This document shows positions 5,412 to 35,996 of a DNA stretch of 37,950 nucleotides, one piece after another (the first letter of the stretch is position 1; the number at the start of each line of letters is the position of its first letter). The stretch comes from Gemmatimonadaceae bacterium. GTDB lineage: Bacteria; Gemmatimonadota; Gemmatimonadetes; Gemmatimonadales; Gemmatimonadaceae. The stretch is from contig JAICOJ010000023.1 of the NCBI GenBank assembly GCA_025930755.1, forward strand, positions 1-37,950, written 5' to 3'. The notes below the pieces were generated by a model. It saw only the letters and a program-made list of their open reading frames with translations, had not been told where the DNA came from and did not search any database. The position numbers and the translations under genes were made by a program.

Positions 5412-5498
5412 ACGAACAGGAACGAGGAACGAGGAACGAGGAACGAGGAAGCGCCGAGGCGAGCTTTCCGCCTTGCTTCCTCGTTCCTCGTTCTCCCG
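5412..5498. repeat. Inverted repeat of GGAACGA heptamers (family A), likely bidirectional terminator
   Basis: The left arm (5418-5452) is four-plus copies of the heptamer GGAACGA ending GGAAGC. The right arm (5475-5496) is GCTTCC followed by TCGTTCC units. About 19 bases at the inner end match perfectly, around a loop of about 22 bases. The element fills the whole space between the kinase TGA (5409-5411) and the csaA TAG (5499-5501 on the minus strand), so it is bracketed by two stop codons. Confidence 0.85.
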
Positions 5499-6592: not shown

Positions 6593-7715
6593 TCGCGCGT
6601 CGACCGCGGCCGACCTTCGGGTCACGGGCGGCGCCATGGTCTACCGGCTGTTCGACGTTGGGTACGAGATCCAGCTCGATCGGGCGCTCGCCCTGCTCGA
6701 GGGACAAGCGCCGGTCCGCGAGCGTCCGCTGCGCGGCGAAGCGCAAGCGATGCAGATCGCCAATCCGCCGGTCAGCGTCACGCTTGGCGACGATCGAGTC
6801 GTCATCGATGGGCGTCCGTACGACGCCACCATGTCGGCGCGGATCTTCGACTTCGGGGTCGTATCGCTGCGGCTCCGTGTCGACGCCGGCGCCGCGATTG
6901 GGTGGGAGCAGTACTCCCGGTTCGGCAACGCCGTGGACGTCGGCACCGACCTCACGCCGCTCTTTCAACGCCATCTGCAGGCATTGTTCGAGCGCATCGC
7001 GACGGCGATCGAGCGGCCGGCGATCGCTCCCGTCTCCGAGGACTACGTCGTGTTTCGCATTCGCCGTCTGGAAGATGCCAGCGGCAGAGTCGCCTCGGCG
7101 GACGCGCTTGGCGACGACGACATCATCCCGCTCCTGCTCAACGAGTCGCGACAGCTGTCGGTCGCGGCGCGACGCGAGCTGCTCCCGCATCGCTTTTCAT
7201 ATTACGGAGACGACCTCACGATCCTGACGTGGGACAACGCCCTCGTGCTCGAGCCGGTAGCCGAGGATACCGACGTGCAATACATCCTGGAGTTCGCGAA
7301 CGCGCAGCTGCTGGAGCTTCGCTTCTACGATGCCGTGCTCGACACCGAGCTCACGCGCATGTACGACCGCATCTCCGAGGCGCGCGCCAAGCCCGCCAGA
7401 TTCTTCCGTCGGCGATTCACCAACCTGCTGACGCGGCTGCTGTCGATCGTCGCCGACTCCACGGAGCTGGTGGAGCGCGCGGAGAACTCGCTCAAGGTGA
7501 CCGACGACGTCTATCTCGCGCGGATCTATTCTGCGGCGCTCGAGATCTTCCGCGGTCGCGCCTGGCGGGCCGGCATCGACCGCAAGCTCACGATCATCCG
7601 CGAGACATACGCGATGCTCAACGCCGAGGGCCAGGCCGCGCGCGGCGAGGCATTGGAGCTCGCGATCGTGCTGCTCTTTGTCCTCGAGATCGTGTTGGCC
7701 TCGTTCGTGAGGTGA
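6585..7715 (+). CDS. Membrane-tethered protein, possible RMD1/DUF155 relative
   Basis: A 376-residue protein beginning MIDRASTAAD. A mixed alpha/beta first half contains SARIFDFGVVSLRLRV. A helical second half runs through LKVTDDVYLARIYSAAL and ends in one C-terminal membrane helix (about 356-374). The order is like the RMD1/YagE (DUF155) family: a beta region with F-x-F-G-V-V, then a long helical part, then a tail of the E-L-A-I-V-L-L-F-V-L-E-I type. I see no single motif that proves it, so the family call is tentative. The ATG overlaps the stop of the ferredoxin gene, so a functional link with that electron carrier is plausible. The 3' end is bounded by the nonamer hairpin at 7716. Confidence 0.7.
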   Translation: MIDRASTAADLRVTGGAMVYRLFDVGYEIQLDRALALLEGQAPVRERPLRGEAQAMQIANPPVSVTLGDDRVVIDGRPYDATMSARIFDFGVVSLRLRVDAGAAIGWEQYSRFGNAVDVGTDLTPLFQRHLQALFERIATAIERPAIAPVSEDYVVFRIRRLEDASGRVASADALGDDDIIPLLLNESRQLSVAARRELLPHRFSYYGDDLTILTWDNALVLEPVAEDTDVQYILEFANAQLLELRFYDAVLDTELTRMYDRISEARAKPARFFRRRFTNLLTRLLSIVADSTELVERAENSLKVTDDVYLARIYSAALEIFRGRAWRAGIDRKLTIIRETYAMLNAEGQAARGEALELAIVLLFVLEIVLASFVR

Positions 7716-7807
7716 AGAGGCGCTGGAGGCGCTGAAAAAAGCGCTGGGGGCGCTGAACCGATAGCAGTTCAGCGCCCCCAGCGCCTTCAGCGCCTTCAGC
7801 GCCTTTT
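7716..7807. terminator. Bidirectional terminator hairpin built from GGCGCTGAA nonamers (family E)
   Basis: The left arm is four GGCGCTGNN units (from 7718) ending GGGGGCGCTGAAC. The right arm is GTTCAGCGCCCCC followed by three CAGCGCCTT units, ending near 7804. Only a few mismatches occur over arms of about 37 bases, with an eight-base loop (CGATAGCA). A TTTT tract follows the right arm, so on the plus strand it has the form of an intrinsic terminator. The stop codons of both convergent genes (TGA ending 7715 and TAA at 7808-7806) flank it directly. Confidence 0.85.
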
Positions 7808-15123: not shown

Positions 15124-17457
15124 TCAGCCCTTTCGCGCGGCGTCCACCCGCCTGACGAGCGCCTCGAACCGGGCCTCGCCGTGAAGCGATTTCAGCTGCG
15201 GATCGACGCCGAGAAAGACCATCGAGTGGGAGCGCTCCTCGTACGCGCGCTCGAGCATCTGCAGCGCCCGCTCACGCGCCCCGAGCGCGAGGTGAACCTT
15301 CGCGAGCTCGTACGTGGGGACATACGATCGTGAGGCACGATCCTCCAGCTCGTGCAGCAGCCCGCGCGCGCGCGCGGTATCCCCGGCGATCGCGCGGGTG
15401 CGCGCGAGCGACGCCACGAACAACGAGCTGCGATGCGTCAGCGCGACCGCGCGCTCGAGCAGCGTGAGTGCCTCCGGCACACGTCCAAGCTCCTCGAGCG
15501 ACCATCCACGCCAGAGCAGGGCGACGGCATACTCCGGATCGAGCTCGAGCGTGAGACGACACTGCTCCGCGGCCCGCTCGAAGTCGCCAGCATAGTACAA
15601 GACCCAGCCGTGCGCCGCGCTCGCGATGAGCGAGAGCGGATCGATCTCCTGAGCTCGGCCCATCGCGCGCTCCGCTTCATCGAAGCGCGCGCGCGCGGTC
15701 AGGAAGTTCGCGTACCACTGATGCGCGGTCGAATACCTCGGCCCGACGTCGGTCGCCCGCGTGAACCATTCCTCGGCGCGCCGCCAGTTCCAGTTGTAGT
15801 ACAGCGCGACGTAGCCGAGCGTCGCATACGGCTGCACGAGCGTCGAGTCGAGCCCCATCGCCCGCTGCGCTGCCCGCTCCGCGGGCGGGAACGCCTCACG
15901 AGGCGGCAGGTAGTCGTAAAACCCGAGCACGGCGAGAGCGTCGGCGAGCCCAGCGTGGGCGAGCGCATACGTCGAGTCTTTCTCGATGGCCTGCGTGAAG
16001 TACGCCGCCGCCGATCTGAGACCCTCCTCGGTGCGGCGATACCACGAATAGCGACCCTTCATGTACAGTGCGTGGCGACCGCGCAGGTACAGATTGTACG
16101 CCTCGAGATCGGTATCCCGTCGCGCCGTCGCGGCGGAGTCGGCACTGCCCACGAGCGTGCCCTTGAGCGTCTCGACAATGGAGCGGGAGATCTCCTCCTG
16201 AATCGCGAACACGTCCTGGAGCTCTCGCTCGTAGGTCCGCGACCAGAGCTGATATCCATCGCGCGCGTTCGAGAGACGCGCCGTAATGCGGAGTCTGCCC
16301 TCGTCGGCCCGGACACTGCCATCGAGCACGGTCGCCACGCCGAGCTGCGTGCCGACGTCGCGGACATCCGGCGTCTTTCCCTTGAATGAGAAGGACGACG
16401 TGCGCGATGCGACGCGCACGCCCTGAACGCGACCGAGTGTGTTGATCAGCTCCTCCGTCATCCCGTCGCTGAAGTACTCGTGATCGTGTGCGGGGCTGAG
16501 ATCGACGAATGGGAGCACCGCGACACTGGTGCTCTCCGCTCTGTTTCCCGCCGACGTGCGTCCGCGCGCCACGGCGGCGACGGCGATCGCCAGGGCGATG
16601 ACCGCTGCTGCGAGAGGCCACCGGCGTCGTCGCGTCGTGACTGCCGCCGGGGGCGCCACCACAGCCGGCGCGTCCACCCGCCGCTGTTCGGAGTCAGGCT
16701 CCTCGGGCACGCGCTCCGATGTCGGCGCCGGCGGGGCCGGTGCGATGGGCTGTGCGCGGATGGACGCGGCGAGCTCGGCGACGGCCGCGTCCGGCTCCGT
16801 GCCGAATTCGTCGGCGAGGAGGGTTGCGTGCACACGAGCATGCTGGAGGGCCGCGGCGCGGTCGCCCGAGCGATCGAGCGCGCGCATGAGCCGAACGGCG
16901 ACGCGCGAGCTGTAGGGATCGTGCGCGGCGAGCGCCCGCCACCACCGCACTGCGTCGACCGTGTCGCCCCGTCGCTCGGCGCTTTCACTCAGTGCTTCGA
17001 GCGCGCGTGCGTACGACCGTGCGAGACGATCGCGCTCCGCGCTGGCCCAGCGCTCGAACTCCTCCGCATCGGCGAGAAAGAATCCGTCGAGAAACGGCCC
17101 ACCATACAGATCCGTGGCACGCTGCCAGTCGCCGCCATCGATCGCGTCCTCGAACCCGGCCACATCGCTCGGCAGCACCTGTGTCGAGAGGCGGAGGTCG
17201 TCCGCGGTGCTGATAATCGCCTCGGCGCCGAGCGCCTGGTTCACCCGGTAGATCGAGTCGGAAAGCAGAGGGCGGGCGTGCTCGGTGTCCTGGTCGGGCC
17301 ACAGGTAGGCGATGAGCTTGTCCCGGCTCACCCCCCGCGCGCGCGCGACAGCGAGCATCGCGAGGAGCGCGATGCGGCGCCGCTGACTGGCGCGGCCGGC
17401 GAGGGGACCCGACGGTGCGTGGATGGACGCGCCGCCGAGGAGCTTGAGTGAGAACAC
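15124..17457 (-). CDS. SARP/BTAD transcriptional regulator with transmembrane segment, FlgO-like domain and TPRs
   Basis: A 777-residue protein. Residues 1-90 form an OmpR-like winged helix (LLGGASIHAPSGPLAGRASQRRRIALLA). Residues 91-235 form a bacterial transcriptional activator (BTAD) helical domain. One membrane helix is at 280-299 after RRRR. Residues 309-430 are a TolB-N/FlgO-like region (SVAVLPFVDLSP then YFSDGMTEELI), and TPRs fill 450-770. DNA binding on the cytoplasmic side and TPRs outside suggests a one-component membrane regulator; the signal is unknown. The start is uncertain: GTG at 17457 matches the family N-terminus, and a TTG at 17544 would extend it. It is divergent from the lipoprotein/DUF4242 pair, its likely target. 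Confidence 0.85.
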   Translation of the reverse strand: MFSLKLLGGASIHAPSGPLAGRASQRRRIALLAMLAVARARGVSRDKLIAYLWPDQDTEHARPLLSDSIYRVNQALGAEAIISTADDLRLSTQVLPSDVAGFEDAIDGGDWQRATDLYGGPFLDGFFLADAEEFERWASAERDRLARSYARALEALSESAERRGDTVDAVRWWRALAAHDPYSSRVAVRLMRALDRSGDRAAALQHARVHATLLADEFGTEPDAAVAELAASIRAQPIAPAPPAPTSERVPEEPDSEQRRVDAPAVVAPPAAVTTRRRRWPLAAAVIALAIAVAAVARGRTSAGNRAESTSVAVLPFVDLSPAHDHEYFSDGMTEELINTLGRVQGVRVASRTSSFSFKGKTPDVRDVGTQLGVATVLDGSVRADEGRLRITARLSNARDGYQLWSRTYERELQDVFAIQEEISRSIVETLKGTLVGSADSAATARRDTDLEAYNLYLRGRHALYMKGRYSWYRRTEEGLRSAAAYFTQAIEKDSTYALAHAGLADALAVLGFYDYLPPREAFPPAERAAQRAMGLDSTLVQPYATLGYVALYYNWNWRRAEEWFTRATDVGPRYSTAHQWYANFLTARARFDEAERAMGRAQEIDPLSLIASAAHGWVLYYAGDFERAAEQCRLTLELDPEYAVALLWRGWSLEELGRVPEALTLLERAVALTHRSSLFVASLARTRAIAGDTARARGLLHELEDRASRSYVPTYELAKVHLALGARERALQMLERAYEERSHSMVFLGVDPQLKSLHGEARFEALVRRVDAARKG

Positions 17458-18444: not shown

Positions 18445-18514
18445 TCGACGTCGTCGAGGATGTCGAGGTGATCGAGGGAAGCCCACCTCGATCACCTCGA
18501 CGACCTCGATCACC
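18443..18514. repeat. Inverted repeat of 9-nt units (family B) between convergent genes
   Basis: The left arm runs from the DUF4242 stop as GATCGACGTCGTCGAGG, then GTCGAGGTGATCGAGG. The right arm is CCTCGATCACCTCGACG, then CCTCGATCACC, made of alternating CTCGATCAC and CTCGACGAC nonamers. The loop is about eight bases. The stop codon of the plug/TonB protein (18510-18512) lies in the right arm. Confidence 0.85.
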
Positions 18515-19658
18515 TCGGCTGTTGCTGGCTCGTCTCGACCGGCATCTCGAACTTCACCGGGAGCTGCACCAGTTGGCGCACGCGCTGGCCACCGAGCAAC
18601 GCCGGATGGAACCGTGCGCTCTGCAGGGCGCGACGTACGGCGTCGGTGAACAAGGGGTGGCTCGTGGAGATCGCGGAGATGCTCTCGGGCAGAACGAAGC
18701 CACTGGTATCGACCACGAACTCGACGAGCACCTGCCCCGTGACGCGCTCGCGGAAGAGTGAGTCGGGGTACGCCGGGCGCGCGATCGAGCCGCTGTCGGT
18801 GCGCGCGACCTGGTCGACCTGATCCGCGGTGAAGAGTTGGCGCTCTTCGACCTGTTTGGCGAGCTCCGAGGGAGGATTGGCCGCCTGGCGAGCCTTGCGC
18901 CGCCGCTCCTCGAAGCCGGTCCAGATGACGATGGCCCCACAGGAGCCACCCCCACGCACCCACCGAAATTCCGGAGGCACCGTCGCGACACCGAGGTAGA
19001 CCTCGATGCCCTCGATGATGTACGGATCGAGCGCATCGAGGTCGTATTCACCCGCGGTCGCGGGGAAGCCATCCAGCCAGACGAGTGGCGCGCAGCGCAT
19101 CCCGCGGAAGCGCACGACGTTGTTGAACGTAGACGAATAGATCCGCGCGCCGGGGACGCTGCGGAACAGATCCGTGAGCTGCGCCGGGTTCCGCTGGTCG
19201 ATCTGGTCGCGCGTGATGTAGTGTCCGCCGGACGAGCGCGACCGCCGCTGATAGAACCCCGCGAGCCTGCCGTGCTCCTCGAACCGGCGGTCGCCGCGCA
19301 CGATGACGGCGGCGAGTGACTGCGCGAGCGGTGCGACGACGATCGTCATCGTCGCCGCTTCGTTTGGTCCGATGTCGATGCTGCCGACGGTCGGGACGAA
19401 CCCCAGCCGGCGTACGCCGACGCTCACGGTGCCGGCGGGAACGTTCGTCAGGCGGAACTCGCCCTGGGGATTGGTGTGCGCCCGCAGGCCCGTGCCCACG
19501 ATGGTGATCTCGGCCCCGGCGATCCCGCCCCCTGAGGAGTCGCGCACGACGCCGGCCACGGTTCCGCGATTCGCGGGCTCCTGGGCGCGAAGCGACGCAG
19601 GCGCGAACGCGAGCGCTCCCCCTGCCAGGCCAATGACGGCCACGCGGCATAGACGCAT
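18510..19658 (-). CDS. Secreted regulatory-domain / TonB-plug / TonB C-terminal fusion protein
   Basis: A 382-residue protein with a signal peptide (1-26, ending LRAQE). A carboxypeptidase-regulatory-like domain (31-110; TVAGVVRDSSGGGIAGAEITIVG) comes first. A TonB-receptor plug-like domain (115-248) follows, with LTDLFRSVPGARIY and a cysteine pair in RCAPLVWLDG and GSCGAIVIW. Last is a TonB C-terminal-like domain (294-371; PAYPDSLFRERVTGQVLVEF and RFHPALLGG). There is no barrel and no TonB N-terminal anchor. Plug and TonB C-terminal domains normally sit in two different partner proteins, so this arrangement is unusual. GGAGG eight bases upstream fixes the start. Transport is unlikely; a binding or assembly role is an inference. 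Confidence 0.82.
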   Translation of the reverse strand: MRLCRVAVIGLAGGALAFAPASLRAQEPANRGTVAGVVRDSSGGGIAGAEITIVGTGLRAHTNPQGEFRLTNVPAGTVSVGVRRLGFVPTVGSIDIGPNEAATMTIVVAPLAQSLAAVIVRGDRRFEEHGRLAGFYQRRSRSSGGHYITRDQIDQRNPAQLTDLFRSVPGARIYSSTFNNVVRFRGMRCAPLVWLDGFPATAGEYDLDALDPYIIEGIEVYLGVATVPPEFRWVRGGGSCGAIVIWTGFEERRRKARQAANPPSELAKQVEERQLFTADQVDQVARTDSGSIARPAYPDSLFRERVTGQVLVEFVVDTSGFVLPESISAISTSHPLFTDAVRRALQSARFHPALLGGQRVRQLVQLPVKFEMPVETSQQQPR

Positions 19659-22927: not shown

Positions 22928-23006
22928 GGAACGAGGAACGAGGAACGAGGAAGTGTCGGTCTGGATCTTGTTCGCCACTTCCTCGTTCCTCGTTCCTCGT
23001 TCCTCT
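22928..23006. repeat. Inverted repeat of GGAACGA heptamers (family A) between divergent starts
   Basis: The left arm GCGGAACGAGGAACGAGG continues to GGAAGTG at 22954. The right arm (22977-23006) is its near-perfect complement, CACTTCC then TCGTTCC units. The arms are about 27 bases around a 23-base loop. It lies 19 bases upstream of the E1 dehydrogenase start and 43 upstream of the HIT start, with no gene end nearby. It is therefore in both 5' regions rather than a 3' region. Confidence 0.85.
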
Positions 23007-23531: not shown

Positions 23532-23817
23532 CCTTTTTCGGGATGCCACCGTCGAAAATATGAAAGGCGGACGCGCCGCGCCCTTGCGCCCCGACGTTCC
23601 GCTCCGCATTCGTAAGGCGCGCGGGCAGCCCTAGTGGGCACCCGCGGCCGATCAACGACTGGAGGCTCATGAGCGTCGATCGACGACCCTCTTCCGACCC
23701 GGAACACCGTCGGCCAACCGTCGTCGCCACACGCTGGTGCGCCCCACCCACCACGACACATCGCCCCGCCCGGGTTCCCCATCCGGCGCGGGGCGACGTG
23801 CATTTCGGCGAGGTGCA

Positions 23818-24219
23818 ATGTCTCGGCACGGCATTCATCGCATCTGCCTCCCCCGCGCGCCGCGTGGACTTCTCCGGCGGCGTCGTTCCCACCTGCGCCA
23901 CGTCGATTTCAAGCGAGCGCTCAAGCGCGCCGTAATGCGCGACTGCGGCCGGCGCTGCGTGTACTGCGGCGCCTGGCTCGAGCATGATCATGCGACCATC
24001 GATCACGTACACCCGCGGGCGCGGGGCGGCATTACCGCGTACGGCAACCTCGTCGCCGCCTGCGCTCCGTGCAACCGGCTGAAGGGTGACATGCTGCCGC
24101 ACGACTTCTTCGTGCGGTACCCGCTGGCGGGCATGAACTTCCTGCTCTACGCCCGAGTCGTGCATCGCGCCTTGAAGAGAGGCGCGAGGCGAGCGGTGAG
24201 TCTCGCCTTGGCGGCCTGA
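23818..24219 (+). CDS. HNH endonuclease, second copy
   Basis: A 133-residue HNH protein: a basic N-terminus (RGLLRRRRSHLRHVDFKRALKRAV), Cys47-x2-Cys50 (RRCVYCGA), IDHVHPRARGG with His63, Asn77 (YGNLV) and Cys82-x2-Cys85 (ACAPCN) with RLKGD. It matches the HNH at 12291-12599 in the core, so the two are paralogous. The start is doubtful. The chosen ATG has GAGGTG upstream. An ATG at 23669 with a perfect GGAGG is in a different frame, so a frameshift in the N-terminus cannot be excluded. The 286 bases before it (23532-23817) show no other gene I can support; the first part is a structured-looking GC-rich stretch. Confidence 0.75.
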   Translation: MSRHGIHRICLPRAPRGLLRRRRSHLRHVDFKRALKRAVMRDCGRRCVYCGAWLEHDHATIDHVHPRARGGITAYGNLVAACAPCNRLKGDMLPHDFFVRYPLAGMNFLLYARVVHRALKRGARRAVSLALAA

Positions 24220-24222
24220 CGT

Positions 24223-24333
24223 CAACTGCGAACTGCGACCTACGAACTGCGAACTAACGGCTTTTCTTCGCAGTTCGCAGTTCGCAGTTCGCAGCCCGCA
24301 GTTCGCAGTTCGCAGTTCGCAGTTGGCAGTTGG
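24223..24333. repeat. Inverted repeat of CGCAGTT heptamers (family D)
   Basis: The right side (24269-24331) is nine consecutive heptamers, CGCAGTT with one CGCAGCC and one GGCAGTT variant. The left side (24224-24258) is five heptamers of the complement AACTGCG, two of them variant. The loop CGGCTTTTCTT contains a T-rich stretch. The left edge is four bases after the HNH TGA and the right edge abuts the convergent nadE TAG. It is the largest and most regular tandem array here. Confidence 0.9.
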
Positions 24334-26175
24334 CTAATAGTCCACCGGCCGCAGATAGCTTTCCCCGATCGCATTCGCACTCACCATCGCGACCGTGGGC
24401 AAACGGCGCTTCCAGTGGGTCCCCTCCAGGCGCTGCCTCACGAGCTCCACCTCCTTCGCCTCGAACCCGCGCGACACGAGCTCGGCGGGGGCGTAGCCGC
24501 TCAGGAGCCACTGCAGGATTCGGTCGGCCTTCTCGTAGCTGATCCCGAGGTCGCCCTCGTCGGTCTGGCCGTGCACGAGGTCGGCGGTGGCCGGCTTCTC
24601 GACGATCGCCCGGGGGACGCCGAGGTGTCGCGCGAGCTGCCACACCTGCGTCTTGAAGAGGTCACCGAGCGGGTTCACCGGGGGCGAGTCATCGGCATGC
24701 CAGGTGAAATAGCCGAACAGCCGCTCGGTCTTGTTGCCGGTGCCTAACGGGATGGCCTGGTACTTCGACGACAGGTCGAACAGCGCGATCATGCGCACCC
24801 GCGCCATGACGTTCCCGCGGCGCCCGGGAGATGCGTCCGCCTCGGCGCTCAGGTAGCCGTCCACCGCGGGCGAGATGTCGAGCGTTCGCCCCGTGATCCC
24901 GAGCGCGTCGATGACGAGCTGGGCGTGCTCGAGACTCTCCGTGCTCGACGTGCGGTACGGCAGGCGCACGCCGATCACATTCTCGGGGCCGAGCGCGCGC
25001 GCGGCGAGATACGCGGTGACGGCCGAGTCCACGCCGCCGGACACACCGATGATGCCCTTCGCGAAGCCGCGCCGGTGCACTTCTTCCTGAATGAAGTGCA
25101 CGAGCCACTTCTCGGTGAGCTCGCCGTCGATGTCGAGGGGCGGCGGTCCCCCCGCGCCTTCGAGCGGCGCCACCGGCACCACGCGCAGCGGCCCGCGCGC
25201 AGGCGGCTCCGCGTCGGGGTGCACCAACGCGTGATCCCCATTCTCGCTCGGCGGGTCGAAGGCGAGGGGCGGCGCCTCACGAGGATCCTGGGCCGTGAGG
25301 CGCTCCATGAGGTGCGGCATCGCCGTGCGCAGATCGGCGAGCAGCGGCATGTCGGCGCGCGCGCGCGTGAGATCGGCGAGGTCGAGAGGCAGCGTGATCA
25401 GCGCCTCCTCCCACAAGGGGGCGCGCGTGCGGATGTCCCCTTTCGGCCCGGCGATGAGCGAGGCGCCGGAGAAGATCTTTCCTCCCTCGCTGCCGGCGAG
25501 GTTCGCGAACGACACGAACACGCCATGCTCCTCGGCGATATCGCGAATGAGCCGCTCCCATCGTGCGACGCTGGCGGGGCCGGGGATGGCGTCGTCGCGG
25601 GGCCAGGCGCCGCGCGCCGGTGCCGCGCTGGACACGAAGATCACCTGCGCGCCGTCGAGCGCCAGGAGCGTGCCCGACAGCGAATGCCAGGCGTCCTCGC
25701 ACACGAGAATCGATGCGCGTCCCCACGACGTGTCGAACGCGTGGAACTCGTGACCGCGCTCGACGAACCGCTCCTCATCGAACAGCCCGTAGGTTGGCAG
25801 GAACACCTTGCGGTGCACGTGCAGCACATCGGGTCCCTCCGGACCGAGCGTGACGTACAGGGCGCTGTTGAAGAGCGTGTTCTGAAAGATTTCGTAGAAG
25901 CCGACGACGACATCCAGCGTCGACAGCCCGTTCGTCGCGCCACGCCACGCGTCCTGGAGATCGCGCGCGAGTGTACCCGCGGTCACCGCGAGATCGCGCA
26001 CTCCACCCTCGACGAAGTATCCGGTGAGCGCGGTCTCGGGGAGGTGGAGCACCTGCGGTCGCGGCCGCATGCCGTTCACCTGCGCGAACACCTCGCCGAG
26101 CCGCGCAAGGTTCGCGGCGTAGTCGCCCTTGGTGGGCTTGATCTGAGCAAGGGCTAAATGAACGAGGGGCGGCAT
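24334..26175 (-). CDS. nadE: Glutamine-dependent NAD+ synthetase
   Basis: A 613-residue two-domain enzyme. The N-terminal nitrilase-type glutaminase (1-290) has the Glu-Lys-Cys triad: Glu47 (LPETALTGY), Lys123 (HRKVFLP) and Cys159 (VCEDAWHS). The C-terminal NAD synthetase domain (about 350-613) has the PP-loop SGGVDSA (379-385), then LPYRTSSTES, PLGTGNKTERLFGYFTW and VNPLGDLFKTQVW. It amidates deamido-NAD using ammonia from glutamine, the last step of NAD biosynthesis. The start MPPLVHLALAQIKPT is the usual N-terminus. The only upstream gene in the same direction is 139 bases away, across a family C repeat. Confidence 0.96.
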   Translation of the reverse strand: MPPLVHLALAQIKPTKGDYAANLARLGEVFAQVNGMRPRPQVLHLPETALTGYFVEGGVRDLAVTAGTLARDLQDAWRGATNGLSTLDVVVGFYEIFQNTLFNSALYVTLGPEGPDVLHVHRKVFLPTYGLFDEERFVERGHEFHAFDTSWGRASILVCEDAWHSLSGTLLALDGAQVIFVSSAAPARGAWPRDDAIPGPASVARWERLIRDIAEEHGVFVSFANLAGSEGGKIFSGASLIAGPKGDIRTRAPLWEEALITLPLDLADLTRARADMPLLADLRTAMPHLMERLTAQDPREAPPLAFDPPSENGDHALVHPDAEPPARGPLRVVPVAPLEGAGGPPPLDIDGELTEKWLVHFIQEEVHRRGFAKGIIGVSGGVDSAVTAYLAARALGPENVIGVRLPYRTSSTESLEHAQLVIDALGITGRTLDISPAVDGYLSAEADASPGRRGNVMARVRMIALFDLSSKYQAIPLGTGNKTERLFGYFTWHADDSPPVNPLGDLFKTQVWQLARHLGVPRAIVEKPATADLVHGQTDEGDLGISYEKADRILQWLLSGYAPAELVSRGFEAKEVELVRQRLEGTHWKRRLPTVAMVSANAIGESYLRPVDY

Positions 26176-26225
26176 CGCTCTAAAGATGGTGGAGATCGCC
26201 GTGAGGGGCCAGCGTTCGGGGGTCT

Positions 26226-26316
26226 GGAACGGCAAAGATGACAGACTTCAGAATACGGAATTCAGCAGTTACGGAATTCTGATTCTGTACTCTGAATTCC
26301 GTCATCCTTGCCGTTC
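26226..26316. repeat. Inverted repeat, family C (ACGGCAAAG-capped)
   Basis: The left arm begins GAACGGCAAAGATGACAGAC and the right arm ends CGTCATCCTTGCCGTTC. The arms are about 38 bases, with mismatches, around an inner GAATTC-rich segment that can fold by itself. On the minus strand it begins at the stop codon of the alpha/beta hydrolase gene (TGAACGGCAAGG) and ends about 50 bases before the nadE start. Confidence 0.85.
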
Positions 26317-30817: not shown

Positions 30818-30881
30818 GGTCGTCGAGGTGATCGAGGAACGTCCTTGCTCTCCTCGATCGCCTCGATCATCTCGACGACCG
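30817..30881. repeat. Inverted repeat of 9-nt units (family B) between convergent genes
   Basis: The left arm GGTCGTCGAGGTGATCGAGG (30818-30837) is complementary to CCTCGATCATCTCGACGACC (30861-30880) except for one base, with an extra CCTCGATCG unit before it. The left edge is the lipoprotein TGA. The right arm contains the last codons and stop of the convergent regulatory-domain protein. Confidence 0.85.
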
Positions 30882-33256: not shown

Positions 33257-34075
33257 TTACGGCACCGAGTCGAGCACGCGCCGCTTTCCCATCGGATCGA
33301 TGTCGAACGCGACGGCCTGGCGCCGTCGCGCTTCGGCACCGCGCACCGTCGCCAGTGCCGTGTAGTAGTCGAGGTAGGCGAATGACGAGATCCCGCCTCG
33401 CACGAACGCGTAGCTCGAGACCAGCTCGCGCCACTTCGCCATCTGGTCGCTGACGTCGACGTAAAGGTACGGCCGGAAGCCGTCGGTATCCTCCCAGTTC
33501 TCCGCGTACCAGAGTCGCGTGCCGCGATGCGCCGGCTCCCCTTTCGACCCCGCCTGGATCGCGGCGAGAAGCACCGCGTCGACGACGATGGCGTGCGTGG
33601 CCGCGTGATCCCGGTGGATGCTCTCGCGCCAGTGCGTGATGACGAGCGTCGGCTTCAGGTGACGGATGACGTCGGCCACGTAGCCCCGGGCGTCCTCATC
33701 GTTGGGCACTTCGCCATCGTGAAACGGCCCGAACAACGCCTCGCCACCGAGAACCCGCGCCGCCGCCTCGGCTTCCCGCCGCTTCTGCGCTCCGTACTCC
33801 GCCGCCGCGACCTTCGGATTCCCCCGCTCGCCCAGGCTCAGGTGCAGAACCACGACACGATCGCCTAACTGGCGCTGCTTGAGCAGCACCGCGCCAGCGG
33901 TGAGCTCCATGTCCCCCGCGTGCGCCCCGACCGCGAGGATGGTGCGCGGTGGCTGCTGAGCGTCGGCCGGCGCGGCGACGAGGATGAAAAGCGGAACGAG
34001 GAACGAGGAGGCCGATACCAGCTTCCTCGTTCCTCGTTCCTCGTTCCGAGAGAGTCTCAGAACAGCGTCCCGCAT
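33257..34075 (-). CDS. Exported PIG-L/LmbE deacetylase
   Basis: A 272-residue PIG-L family N-acetyl hydrolase. The metal motif, normally AHPDDE, reads AHAGDME (His52, Asp55 and Glu57), and the second ligand segment is HRDHAATH (154-161). Family members remove N-acetyl groups from amino sugars. The signal peptide is unusual: its positive n-region (RNEERGTRK) and the start of its hydrophobic core (SSFLVP) are the translation of a family A repeat. No start codon lies beyond the repeat, so this N-terminus appears real. The ATG is inside the end of the SpoIID gene, an overlap of 19 bases. A GTG at 34093 is another option. Confidence 0.82.
   Translation of the reverse strand: MRDAVLRLSRNEERGTRKLVSASSFLVPLFILVAAPADAQQPPRTILAVGAHAGDMELTAGAVLLKQRQLGDRVVVLHLSLGERGNPKVAAAEYGAQKRREAEAAARVLGGEALFGPFHDGEVPNDEDARGYVADVIRHLKPTLVITHWRESIHRDHAATHAIVVDAVLLAAIQAGSKGEPAHRGTRLWYAENWEDTDGFRPYLYVDVSDQMAKWRELVSSYAFVRGGISSFAYLDYYTALATVRGAEARRRQAVAFDIDPMGKRRVLDSVP
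33991..34050. repeat. Family A inverted repeat inside the PIG-L signal peptide
   Basis: GCGGAACGAGGAACGAGGAG (33991-34010) is complementary to CTTCC followed by TCGTTCC units ending TTCCG at 34048. The loop is GCCGATACCAG-like, about 11 bases. On the minus strand it starts seven bases after the SpoIID-domain gene stop, as a 3' hairpin would. It lies in the first 40 codons of the PIG-L gene. Confidence 0.85.
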
Positions 34076-35754
34076 CCCGCGGGATTCGTGCACATCGACA
34101 CCAGCTCGATCCCGCGATAGTAGTGCTTCAGGATCCCGATGAAGCTCGCCTTCTTCTCCGCCATCCCGACAGCGCCCGTCTGCGACATGCCGACGCCGTG
34201 GCCGAAGCCGCCGCCCCAGGCGATGAATCCCGTCAGCTCCTTCGTGTGCTTGTCATGTACCGGCTCGACGTACACGAGCGTGCTCGGCAGGTTGACCTTG
34301 GCGCCACTTTCGTCGATGAAGCGGAGCGAGGAGCGGATGCGATCCTTCGTGTCGGTGAACGTTCCCAGCTCGGTCACGTATTCGATCGTTTTCACGCGAC
34401 CCGAGCCGCTGCGCTCCAGCACGTTGATGGCGAGCACTGCGCCGACGTCCTGGCCCACCCACGATGAGATCACGTCGCGAATCTCGGCATTGCTCCACTC
34501 GAACGTCCACCGATGGAAGCGGCTCCAGTCGGACTCGAAGTCGCCATTCTTCGTCGCGCGGAGCTGCCGAGCGTTCGCATTGTTCTGAACGCCGTCCTCG
34601 TGATTCTCGAGCGAGTTGCCGCGCTGATGATCCGGGATGCCACGCAGATACGCGACGGGATTGGAGTTGAAGACGTCCTCGTTGTTGGCGGTGAATCCAC
34701 CACTCGTCGAGAAGTACAGCGCCTCGATGGGACGGATGCCGTCGGCCGTCGCGATCACGCCCTCCGTCTCGTTCACCGCCTGATTCGACAGCGGATGCTC
34801 GTCCTGGAATCCGCCGTACACCTGGTCGGCGGTCGTCGGCAACAGATTGTAGCCGTCGGACAGTCGCTTGTTGAAGTTGGCGATCGCGTACGTGCGCGCC
34901 GCCACCGACTGCGCCTTCAGCGCTTCCAGCTCCGGAAACGCGATCGGCCCGAGCTCGCGCGGCACGACACCCCAGAGATAGTGCTCGAGCGGCAGCTCGT
35001 TGACCCCTGCCAGTGCGCCACCCCCCGCCGCGAGATGGACCTCCGCGACGCCGCGGTAGAGTCGCGTGCCGATGCGAACGATGCCGTCGGGCGACGACAG
35101 CACGATGTTGTTCGGAGTCGTGGCAAGCGACGTCGCCCCGCGCCGGAGATCGATCTGCGCGATGCCGTCGGAGCGTGTAACCGTGAACGGTCCGCCAGGC
35201 GCCGTGGGCGGAAAGGTCAGTCCCGCGGCCGTGAAGCTGGCGACGAACGCGGTGCGCTGGGCAGCGGTCGCATTGGTCGGCAACGAGCCGATCCGAAGCC
35301 GCCAGCAGTTTGCCCCCGCGACGAACTCGGTATACCACTCGAATCCGGCCGTCGTCACCCGTGCGGTCCAGTTGTCGCGCGTGGCGACGCTTCCGGTGCA
35401 GGCGACCTGCCACCACAGCCGAGTGCGCGAGGTCCCGCCCGGAATCAGCACCGCCGTCAGGTTCTCGGCGGTGCCGGTCGCGACCGTAGCGCCCGTCCGC
35501 TTGTCGACCACCGTGAACGACGTCGGGCTCCCGATCGTCACGCTCGTCGTGGGCGTCGAGCCGTTGATCGCGGCGATGACACCGATGCGGATCATTCCCG
35601 CGAAGCCGGCAGGCGCGTCGATCGCCTCGCCGATCGTGTCATCCCGCCCATTCTCGAACCGAGGGGAGTGCGGGCCGGTCAGCAGATCCGTGCAGCCGGA
35701 AAACATAACGAGCGTGCCCGAGGCGAGACTCGTCGCGAGACGACCGAGACGCAT
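34057..35754 (-). CDS. SpoIID/LytB domain lipoprotein
   Basis: A 565-residue lipoprotein with lipobox Cys21 (VMFSGC). Residues 55-200 include two beta-rich segments, and one (WRLRIGSLPTNATAAQRTAF) is like an SPOR repeat. Residues 200-560 are the SpoIID domain: LPLEHYLWGVVPRELG with catalytic Glu277, LKAQSVAARTYAI, TSGGFTANNED and GGGFGHGVGMSQTGAVGMA. SpoIID proteins are lytic transglycosylases for denuded glycan; SpoIID-like proteins are also found in non-spore-formers, probably in wall remodelling. GGAG precedes the ATG. It overlaps the PIG-L gene and is likely co-transcribed with it. The 242-base upstream spacer (35755-35996) has GC-rich potential hairpins but no gene I can support. Confidence 0.9.
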   Translation of the reverse strand: MRLGRLATSLASGTLVMFSGCTDLLTGPHSPRFENGRDDTIGEAIDAPAGFAGMIRIGVIAAINGSTPTTSVTIGSPTSFTVVDKRTGATVATGTAENLTAVLIPGGTSRTRLWWQVACTGSVATRDNWTARVTTAGFEWYTEFVAGANCWRLRIGSLPTNATAAQRTAFVASFTAAGLTFPPTAPGGPFTVTRSDGIAQIDLRRGATSLATTPNNIVLSSPDGIVRIGTRLYRGVAEVHLAAGGGALAGVNELPLEHYLWGVVPRELGPIAFPELEALKAQSVAARTYAIANFNKRLSDGYNLLPTTADQVYGGFQDEHPLSNQAVNETEGVIATADGIRPIEALYFSTSGGFTANNEDVFNSNPVAYLRGIPDHQRGNSLENHEDGVQNNANARQLRATKNGDFESDWSRFHRWTFEWSNAEIRDVISSWVGQDVGAVLAINVLERSGSGRVKTIEYVTELGTFTDTKDRIRSSLRFIDESGAKVNLPSTLVYVEPVHDKHTKELTGFIAWGGGFGHGVGMSQTGAVGMAEKKASFIGILKHYYRGIELVSMCTNPAGCGTLF

Positions 35755-35996
35755 GGAATCTCCATCAGATGGGGGGAGCCCTAACTTAGTCGCGTAAGGC
35801 GGTCTCGGAAGTCCCGAATGGTTCCCGGCCACCGGGCGTGCCCGGCCGCCGGGAGTCCGCGTGCGGGCGTCGGCGGGCTCGCTCCGCCCGCATGGTCGCC
35901 GCTCATGCGGGGGTCTGGCCGCGGGCGATGAGCCATCCAACGACCGCGACGGCCGGAAATCGCTAACAGCGAGCGGATGCCCTACCAGCGGCGGAT

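Follow-up and report, generated by a model that had tools for sequence, protein, structure and literature searches.

An HNH endonuclease gene and nadE converge on a 114-nt spacer (24220–24333), which is filled nearly whole, from stop codon to stop codon, by an inverted pair of heptamer arrays, with the units read in register. We think it likely that this element is a bidirectional gene-end hairpin that acts on both converging transcripts, by termination or by protection of the 3′ end. Elements of this kind have the potential to form hairpins, share a position and a polarity, and are conserved in their sites. We infer an effect of the hairpins on RNA; they probably mark where genes end, as terminators or as the 3′ ends of mRNAs. 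A preliminary description had treated the arrays as tandem repeats and missed the main point, which is that they are the arms of a gene-end hairpin. What is conserved is the hairpin, neither the unit nor its count.

The spacer between the HNH gene and nadE

The window is the whole stretch of 37,950 nt that was analysed. It belongs to a soil Gemmatimonadaceae MAG (G000; 4.27 Mb, 275 contigs). The spacer and its neighbours are as follows.

23737–24219, + strand: HNH endonuclease gene, convergent neighbour (Pfam HNH, 2.5e-11)
24224–24258, + strand: HNH-side (left) arm, AACTGCG, AACTGCG, ACCTACG, AACTGCG and remnant AACTAAC (units in register, TRF)
24259–24268, no strand: loop GGCTTTTCTT
24269–24333, − strand: nadE-side (right) arm, nine CGCAGTT units (seven perfect) and a partial GG (units in register, TRF)
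24334–26235, − strand: nadE, glutamine-dependent NAD+ synthetase, convergent neighbour (Pfam NAD_synthase and CN_hydrolase domains)

The HNH gene stops with TGA at 24217–24219, and the left arm begins 5 nt past the final base of that codon. The right arm directly adjoins the stop codon of nadE (TAG, 24334–24336, minus strand). Perfect AACTGCG units of the left arm start at 24224, 24231, and 24245; ACCTACG at 24238 has two mismatches, and the remnant at 24252 has three mismatches to AACTGCG. The nine in-phase units of the right arm (24269–24331) read CGCAGTT three times, CGCAGCC, CGCAGTT four times, and GGCAGTT. The copy numbers given by TRF are 9.3 and 4.6 for the two arrays. The preliminary description had counted nine perfect-phase heptamers opposite five. 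The nine are in phase, but seven of them are perfect, and the five are four units and a remnant, three being perfect. Eight period-7 runs with at least 10 matches were observed in the whole window, against a mean of 0.16 in order-1 Markov shuffles, an excess well beyond chance. Both strands of the element fold far more stably than shuffled sequence (z = −6.2 and −7.6).

Bidirectional intrinsic terminators provide a hairpin common to convergent genes. A stable hairpin between convergent stop codons is also what this spacer holds, and some sister elements contain a core of A-tract, GC stem, and T-tract. However, the stems here are tandem units, and the T-tract is missing in most families. The loop at 24259–24268 is eroded relative to AACTGCG-family sisters, several of which hold a AAAACCCTCGGGA..TCCCGAGGGTTTT core there; the A-tract/GC-stem/T-tract core enclosed by several of these sisters is eroded in the nadE/HNH copy. 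No U-tract directly follows the stem, and a simple terminator scan, which covers only loops of 3–8 nt followed by a T-run, calls nothing at 24220–24333. The terminator reading is weakened by this empty scan and by the missing T-tract core at the site.

As a gene-end hairpin, the element would act in the same way from either side. A transcript of either gene would carry purine-rich heptamers just past its stop and then their complement, and would fold into the same long hairpin. This hairpin could define or protect the mRNA 3′ end, halt transcription before the opposing gene, or both.

Other origins were considered for the sequence itself. A coding origin is ruled out by the location of the element between stop codons and by the intergenic location of about 80% of the sampled arrays. 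A G-quadruplex is ruled out for AACTGCG/CGCAGTT, as the tandem unit has no GG on either strand. Rfam gave nothing above the gathering score at the nadE/HNH element, with only two microRNA models far below the cut-off.

Distribution, position, and polarity of the elements

Stretches totalling 438 kb of this genome and 815 kb of a congener (G001) were sampled, with one genome per species. Genome-wide, three successive AACTGCG units have 166 exact matches and GGAACGAGGAACGAGGAA has 124, with none for either reversed control; both counts include overlapping matches inside one array. In the 438 kb there are 67 runs of period 7 and 15 of period 9, and 1–3 runs each of periods 4, 5, 6, 8, 10, 11, and 13. 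Periods 7 and 9 also dominate among the inverted pairs, where period 8 is rare and periods 10–13 are nearly absent.

The unit families of this genome are AACTGCG, GGAACGA, CAGGAGT, GAATTCA, and nonamers. On inspection, 62 clusters fell into several unit families, in which two arms usually face each other across a core. Inverted heptamer pairs of all families number 36 in the 438 kb. Scored elements, defined as a tandem arm with a strong inverted repeat at thresholds that we set ourselves, number 45, which extrapolates to some 400 in this genome. The stem arms, made of tandem units, have a median of about 36–41 nt. The sister elements in the window are listed below.

2525–2613: degenerate GGAACGA-family hairpin, convergent spacer
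5418–5493: GGAACGA family, convergent spacer
7715–7807: nonamer (GGCGCTGAA-type) hairpin filling a convergent spacer
18446–18517: nonamer (GATCGAGGT-type) hairpin, convergent spacer
22928–23005: GGAACGA family, divergent spacer (an exception to the gene-end rule)
30818–30880: nonamer-type hairpin, convergent spacer
33993–34047: GGAACGA family, just before the end of the 34057–35940 (−) gene

Elements occupy 19 of 28 convergent spacers (about 68%), 24 of 113 co-directional spacers (21%), and 2 of 40 divergent spacers (5%) in this genome, with orientations taken from an approximate home-made gene caller that missed the HNH gene. The congener has them in 26 of 51 convergent, 50 of 190 co-directional, and 4 of 52 divergent spacers. 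Shuffled controls gave 1/181 and 0/293 spacers with an element for the two genomes, respectively. The enrichment in convergent over other spacers is significant (p = 2e-8). Elements mostly have their outer edge within a few nucleotides of a stop codon and lie at widely varying distances from the downstream start.

The GGAACGA hairpin at 22928–23005 lies between the divergent starts of an E1/transketolase-type dehydrogenase gene and a downstream + strand gene. Placed between two start codons, it can end neither gene and is a true exception; a 5′-end role at this site would be at odds with the terminator reading. A hairpin is retained there in the congener, with arms of the GGATTGC type. The few elements between divergent starts weaken the gene-end reading, as do AACTGCG arrays that have a single arm.

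The polarity of the pairs is uniform. The purine-rich arm comes first in all heptamer pairs (36/36 in this genome, 42/42 in the congener, and 7/7 in a third set) and in nearly all nonamer pairs (4/5, and 27/28 in the congener). Strong hairpins without tandem arms are few, and among these the purine-rich arm is first in 6/6 here, 5/8 in the congener, and 9/15 elsewhere. Such universal polarity is also what would be seen if a purine-rich sense-strand signal followed each stop, read by protein binding or as a quadruplex, with the inverted layout reflecting merely two converging genes; a similar strand preference exists in Xanthomonas, where G-quadruplexes were proposed. We regard this as most improbable, given that both arms are present in co-directional spacers too and that AACTGCG has no G-tract, which makes the proposed quadruplex impossible.

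A loose grammar on the purine-rich strand, G-R-R-N-Y-S-M, covers the main heptamer families, though not every one; drawn up post hoc, it carries no evidential weight.

The cores are partly family-specific, yet AACTGCG arms surround quite different cores. Constant arms with varied cores indicate that arms and core are modular. Four CAGGAGT-family elements (L091 14175–14330, L095 12334–12489, L104 11621–11773, and L254 about 15470–15748) have a common two-hairpin core around CTCATCAGATGAG, in which the central palindrome hardly changes but the hairpin stems vary. The congener has a CTCATCTGACGAG version of this core, flanked by arms of a different, 9-nt unit. Upstream of nadE, at 26235–26314, a GAATTC-rich palindrome is flanked by CGGCAAAGATGAC and GTCATCCTTGCCG, the sequences that mark the outer ends of GAATTCA-family elements.

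The same sites in related genomes

The comparisons rest on MAG assemblies, whose contigs break at repeats. The congener has about 81% nucleotide identity to this genome and lacks the AACTGCG unit. Its nadE/HNH spacer carries a nonamer hairpin, GGTGCTCGA five times facing TGAGCACCC-type units, and its assembly breaks inside this spacer. A member of another genus (G003) has GGTGCTC-type heptamers between nadE and the HNH gene. Other members of the family have further units there, such as GGGCGTG or AGCCGTG, or none.

The site is kept more generally. The congener has an element in 14 of the 16 orthologous spacers that hold one here and in 7 of the 41 that do not (odds ratio 34, p = 1.3e-6; the congener tandem threshold was 7 instead of 9 in both rows). 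At 23 element sites and nadE, compared by eye, the congener has the same unit in about 2, a closely related unit in about 6, and a different unit in about 13; an unrelated palindrome is present in 2, and the element is lost in 1. This provides a natural case in which structure and place are conserved while the sequence is replaced by another repeat in a moderately diverged relative. In the gene-end hairpin reading, such family replacement at one site could proceed through non-allelic conversion or templated repair, and selection would retain only the hairpin and its polarity.

At two orthologous sites (L224 14465–14869 and L226 4471–5045) the congener has unrelated palindromes of more than 300 nt that are alike; these are possibly another dispersed element.

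G000, G001, and G003 carry the elements densely; in the rest of the family they are sparse. Of 118 family genomes, 6 have the AACTGCG family, which is abundant in just two of them, G000 and G003, from different genera. Patchy spread of this kind, with a congener that has none, together with dispersed families and partly common cores (GAAGTGGC..GCCACTTC; hairpin-CTCATCAGATGAG-hairpin), would suit non-autonomous mobile palindromes, REP- or MITE-like, that insert at gene ends and replace one another. REP/BIME elements with RAYT transposases are dispersed intergenic palindromes, often near gene ends. They have no tandem heptamer stems, however, and their transposase family, Y1_Tnp, was matched once in G000 and not at all in G001 or G003, which disfavours RAYT-driven REP. 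Constant AACTGCG arms around widely differing cores are the reverse of whole-element copying, and independent insertion into the same spacers would be needed in both congeners. Because the transposase is nearly absent and the cores are variable, we consider transposition quite unlikely.

The lengths of the arms bear on their growth. As the preliminary description had proposed from the nadE spacer, the arms are indeed unequal: among nine AACTGCG-family pairs the left arm has 2.0–4.6 units and the right arm 3.6–10.7. Its view that one arm changes without the other is borne out by 36 pairs of all heptamer families, in which arm lengths are uncorrelated (Spearman 0.09, p 0.6). Unequal and uncorrelated arms imply that the length of one arm evolves independently of the other. 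The preliminary description had also taken the arms for live repeats, probably of variable length. Arms of the commonest family, GGAACGA, are mostly near-constant at about 3.4–3.9 units on both sides, and variable length is therefore not general to these elements. For the nadE spacer, unit counts in this genome and the congener are not comparable, since the congener unit is a nonamer. The two congener contig ends that reach into this spacer differ in their outermost unit, which hints weakly at variation within a population, as a phase-variable (contingency) repeat would show.

Uncorrelated arm lengths and the occurrence of single-arm arrays are also in keeping with neutral microsatellites, in which intergenic heptamers would expand by polymerase slippage, inverted pairs would arise by palindrome correction, and the siting at gene ends would come only from selection purging them elsewhere. 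Period 7 is over-represented in many bacteria, as stated with reference to Mrazek in Rehm 2015 (PMC4692102). Neutrality does not predict one polarity in 85 of 85 heptamer pairs, a few units recurring at dozens of loci per genome, or a hairpin kept at one spacer with another unit. We judge it unlikely. In the gene-end hairpin reading, the arms would likewise grow and shrink by slippage at the unit length, and the two arms of one element could become matched to each other. In the CAGGAGT family, the two arms of an element do carry matching variants (p = 0.002). Units of the GGAACGA and AACTGCG families hardly vary, and matching is not significant there; significance in one family only weakens the gene-end reading. 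Slippage with palindrome correction explains growth and arm matching, but not the sharing of units between loci.

An active sequence-templated process, either telomere-like addition or templated break repair, might instead write the units. At a gene-end break, each of the two 3′ strands would receive the same purine-rich 7- or 9-mer. The inverted orientation of the arms would follow from this, and so would their constant polarity, the presence of one unit at dozens of loci whose cores differ, and the complete switch of unit from one congener to the other. We rate it as very unlikely. Two questions are now testable: how a 7-nt unit is kept uniform over dozens of separate loci within one bacterium, and whether gene 3′ ends in GC-rich soil phyla depend on such hairpins.

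Comparison with known repeats and further arrays

In the literature on Gemmatimonadota repeats, we found nothing on point. The cyanobacterial STRR heptamers form dispersed tandem intergenic arrays in direct orientation. In these, and in the TAACTGA repeats of Beggiatoaceae, the arrays are direct and inverted pairs are rare, whereas here the pairs are inverted. The Beggiatoaceae heptamers are dispersed, tandem, and intergenic, and lie mostly upstream of start codons (PMC4679880). Paired DNA uptake sequences of Neisseria, as cited in PMC2397512, are close inverted pairs of a short dispersed word that make a terminator hairpin. They have one copy per arm of a conserved word tied to competence, without tandem arrays; the elements here are tandem-armed.

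The nearest precedent is the inverted GGGAATC heptamers of Xanthomonas, with which most of the anatomy is common. As in that system, many intergenic arrays of one heptamer are found here, often as inverted pairs near stop codons. Xanthomonas has hundreds of intergenic arrays, 70–75 cases being closely spaced inverted pairs (Rehm et al. 2015, PMC4692102). The G-rich strand lies near stop codons in sense, arrays are rare between divergent genes, and in two species they mostly occupy the same intergenic sites, with varying length and sequence (PMC4692102). They form one G-tract family, mostly in co-directional spacers with 16% convergent, for which a G-quadruplex was argued, and they had no assigned function (PMC4692102). 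In contrast, the present genome has several unit families, AACTGCG has no G-tracts, most convergent spacers are occupied, and the unit is swapped at the same site between congeners.

Such spacers may break short-read assemblies, as suggested by the congener break in the nadE/HNH spacer and by arrays at contig starts in G003. Arrays of GGATTGC lie at or beside several contig starts of G003 (C64, C114, C115, C122, C149, and C252), with about 16 units in C122; the long arrays probably break this assembly. In G132 (L275, around 1500), a short CGCAGTT array was seen by eye between apparent tRNA genes.
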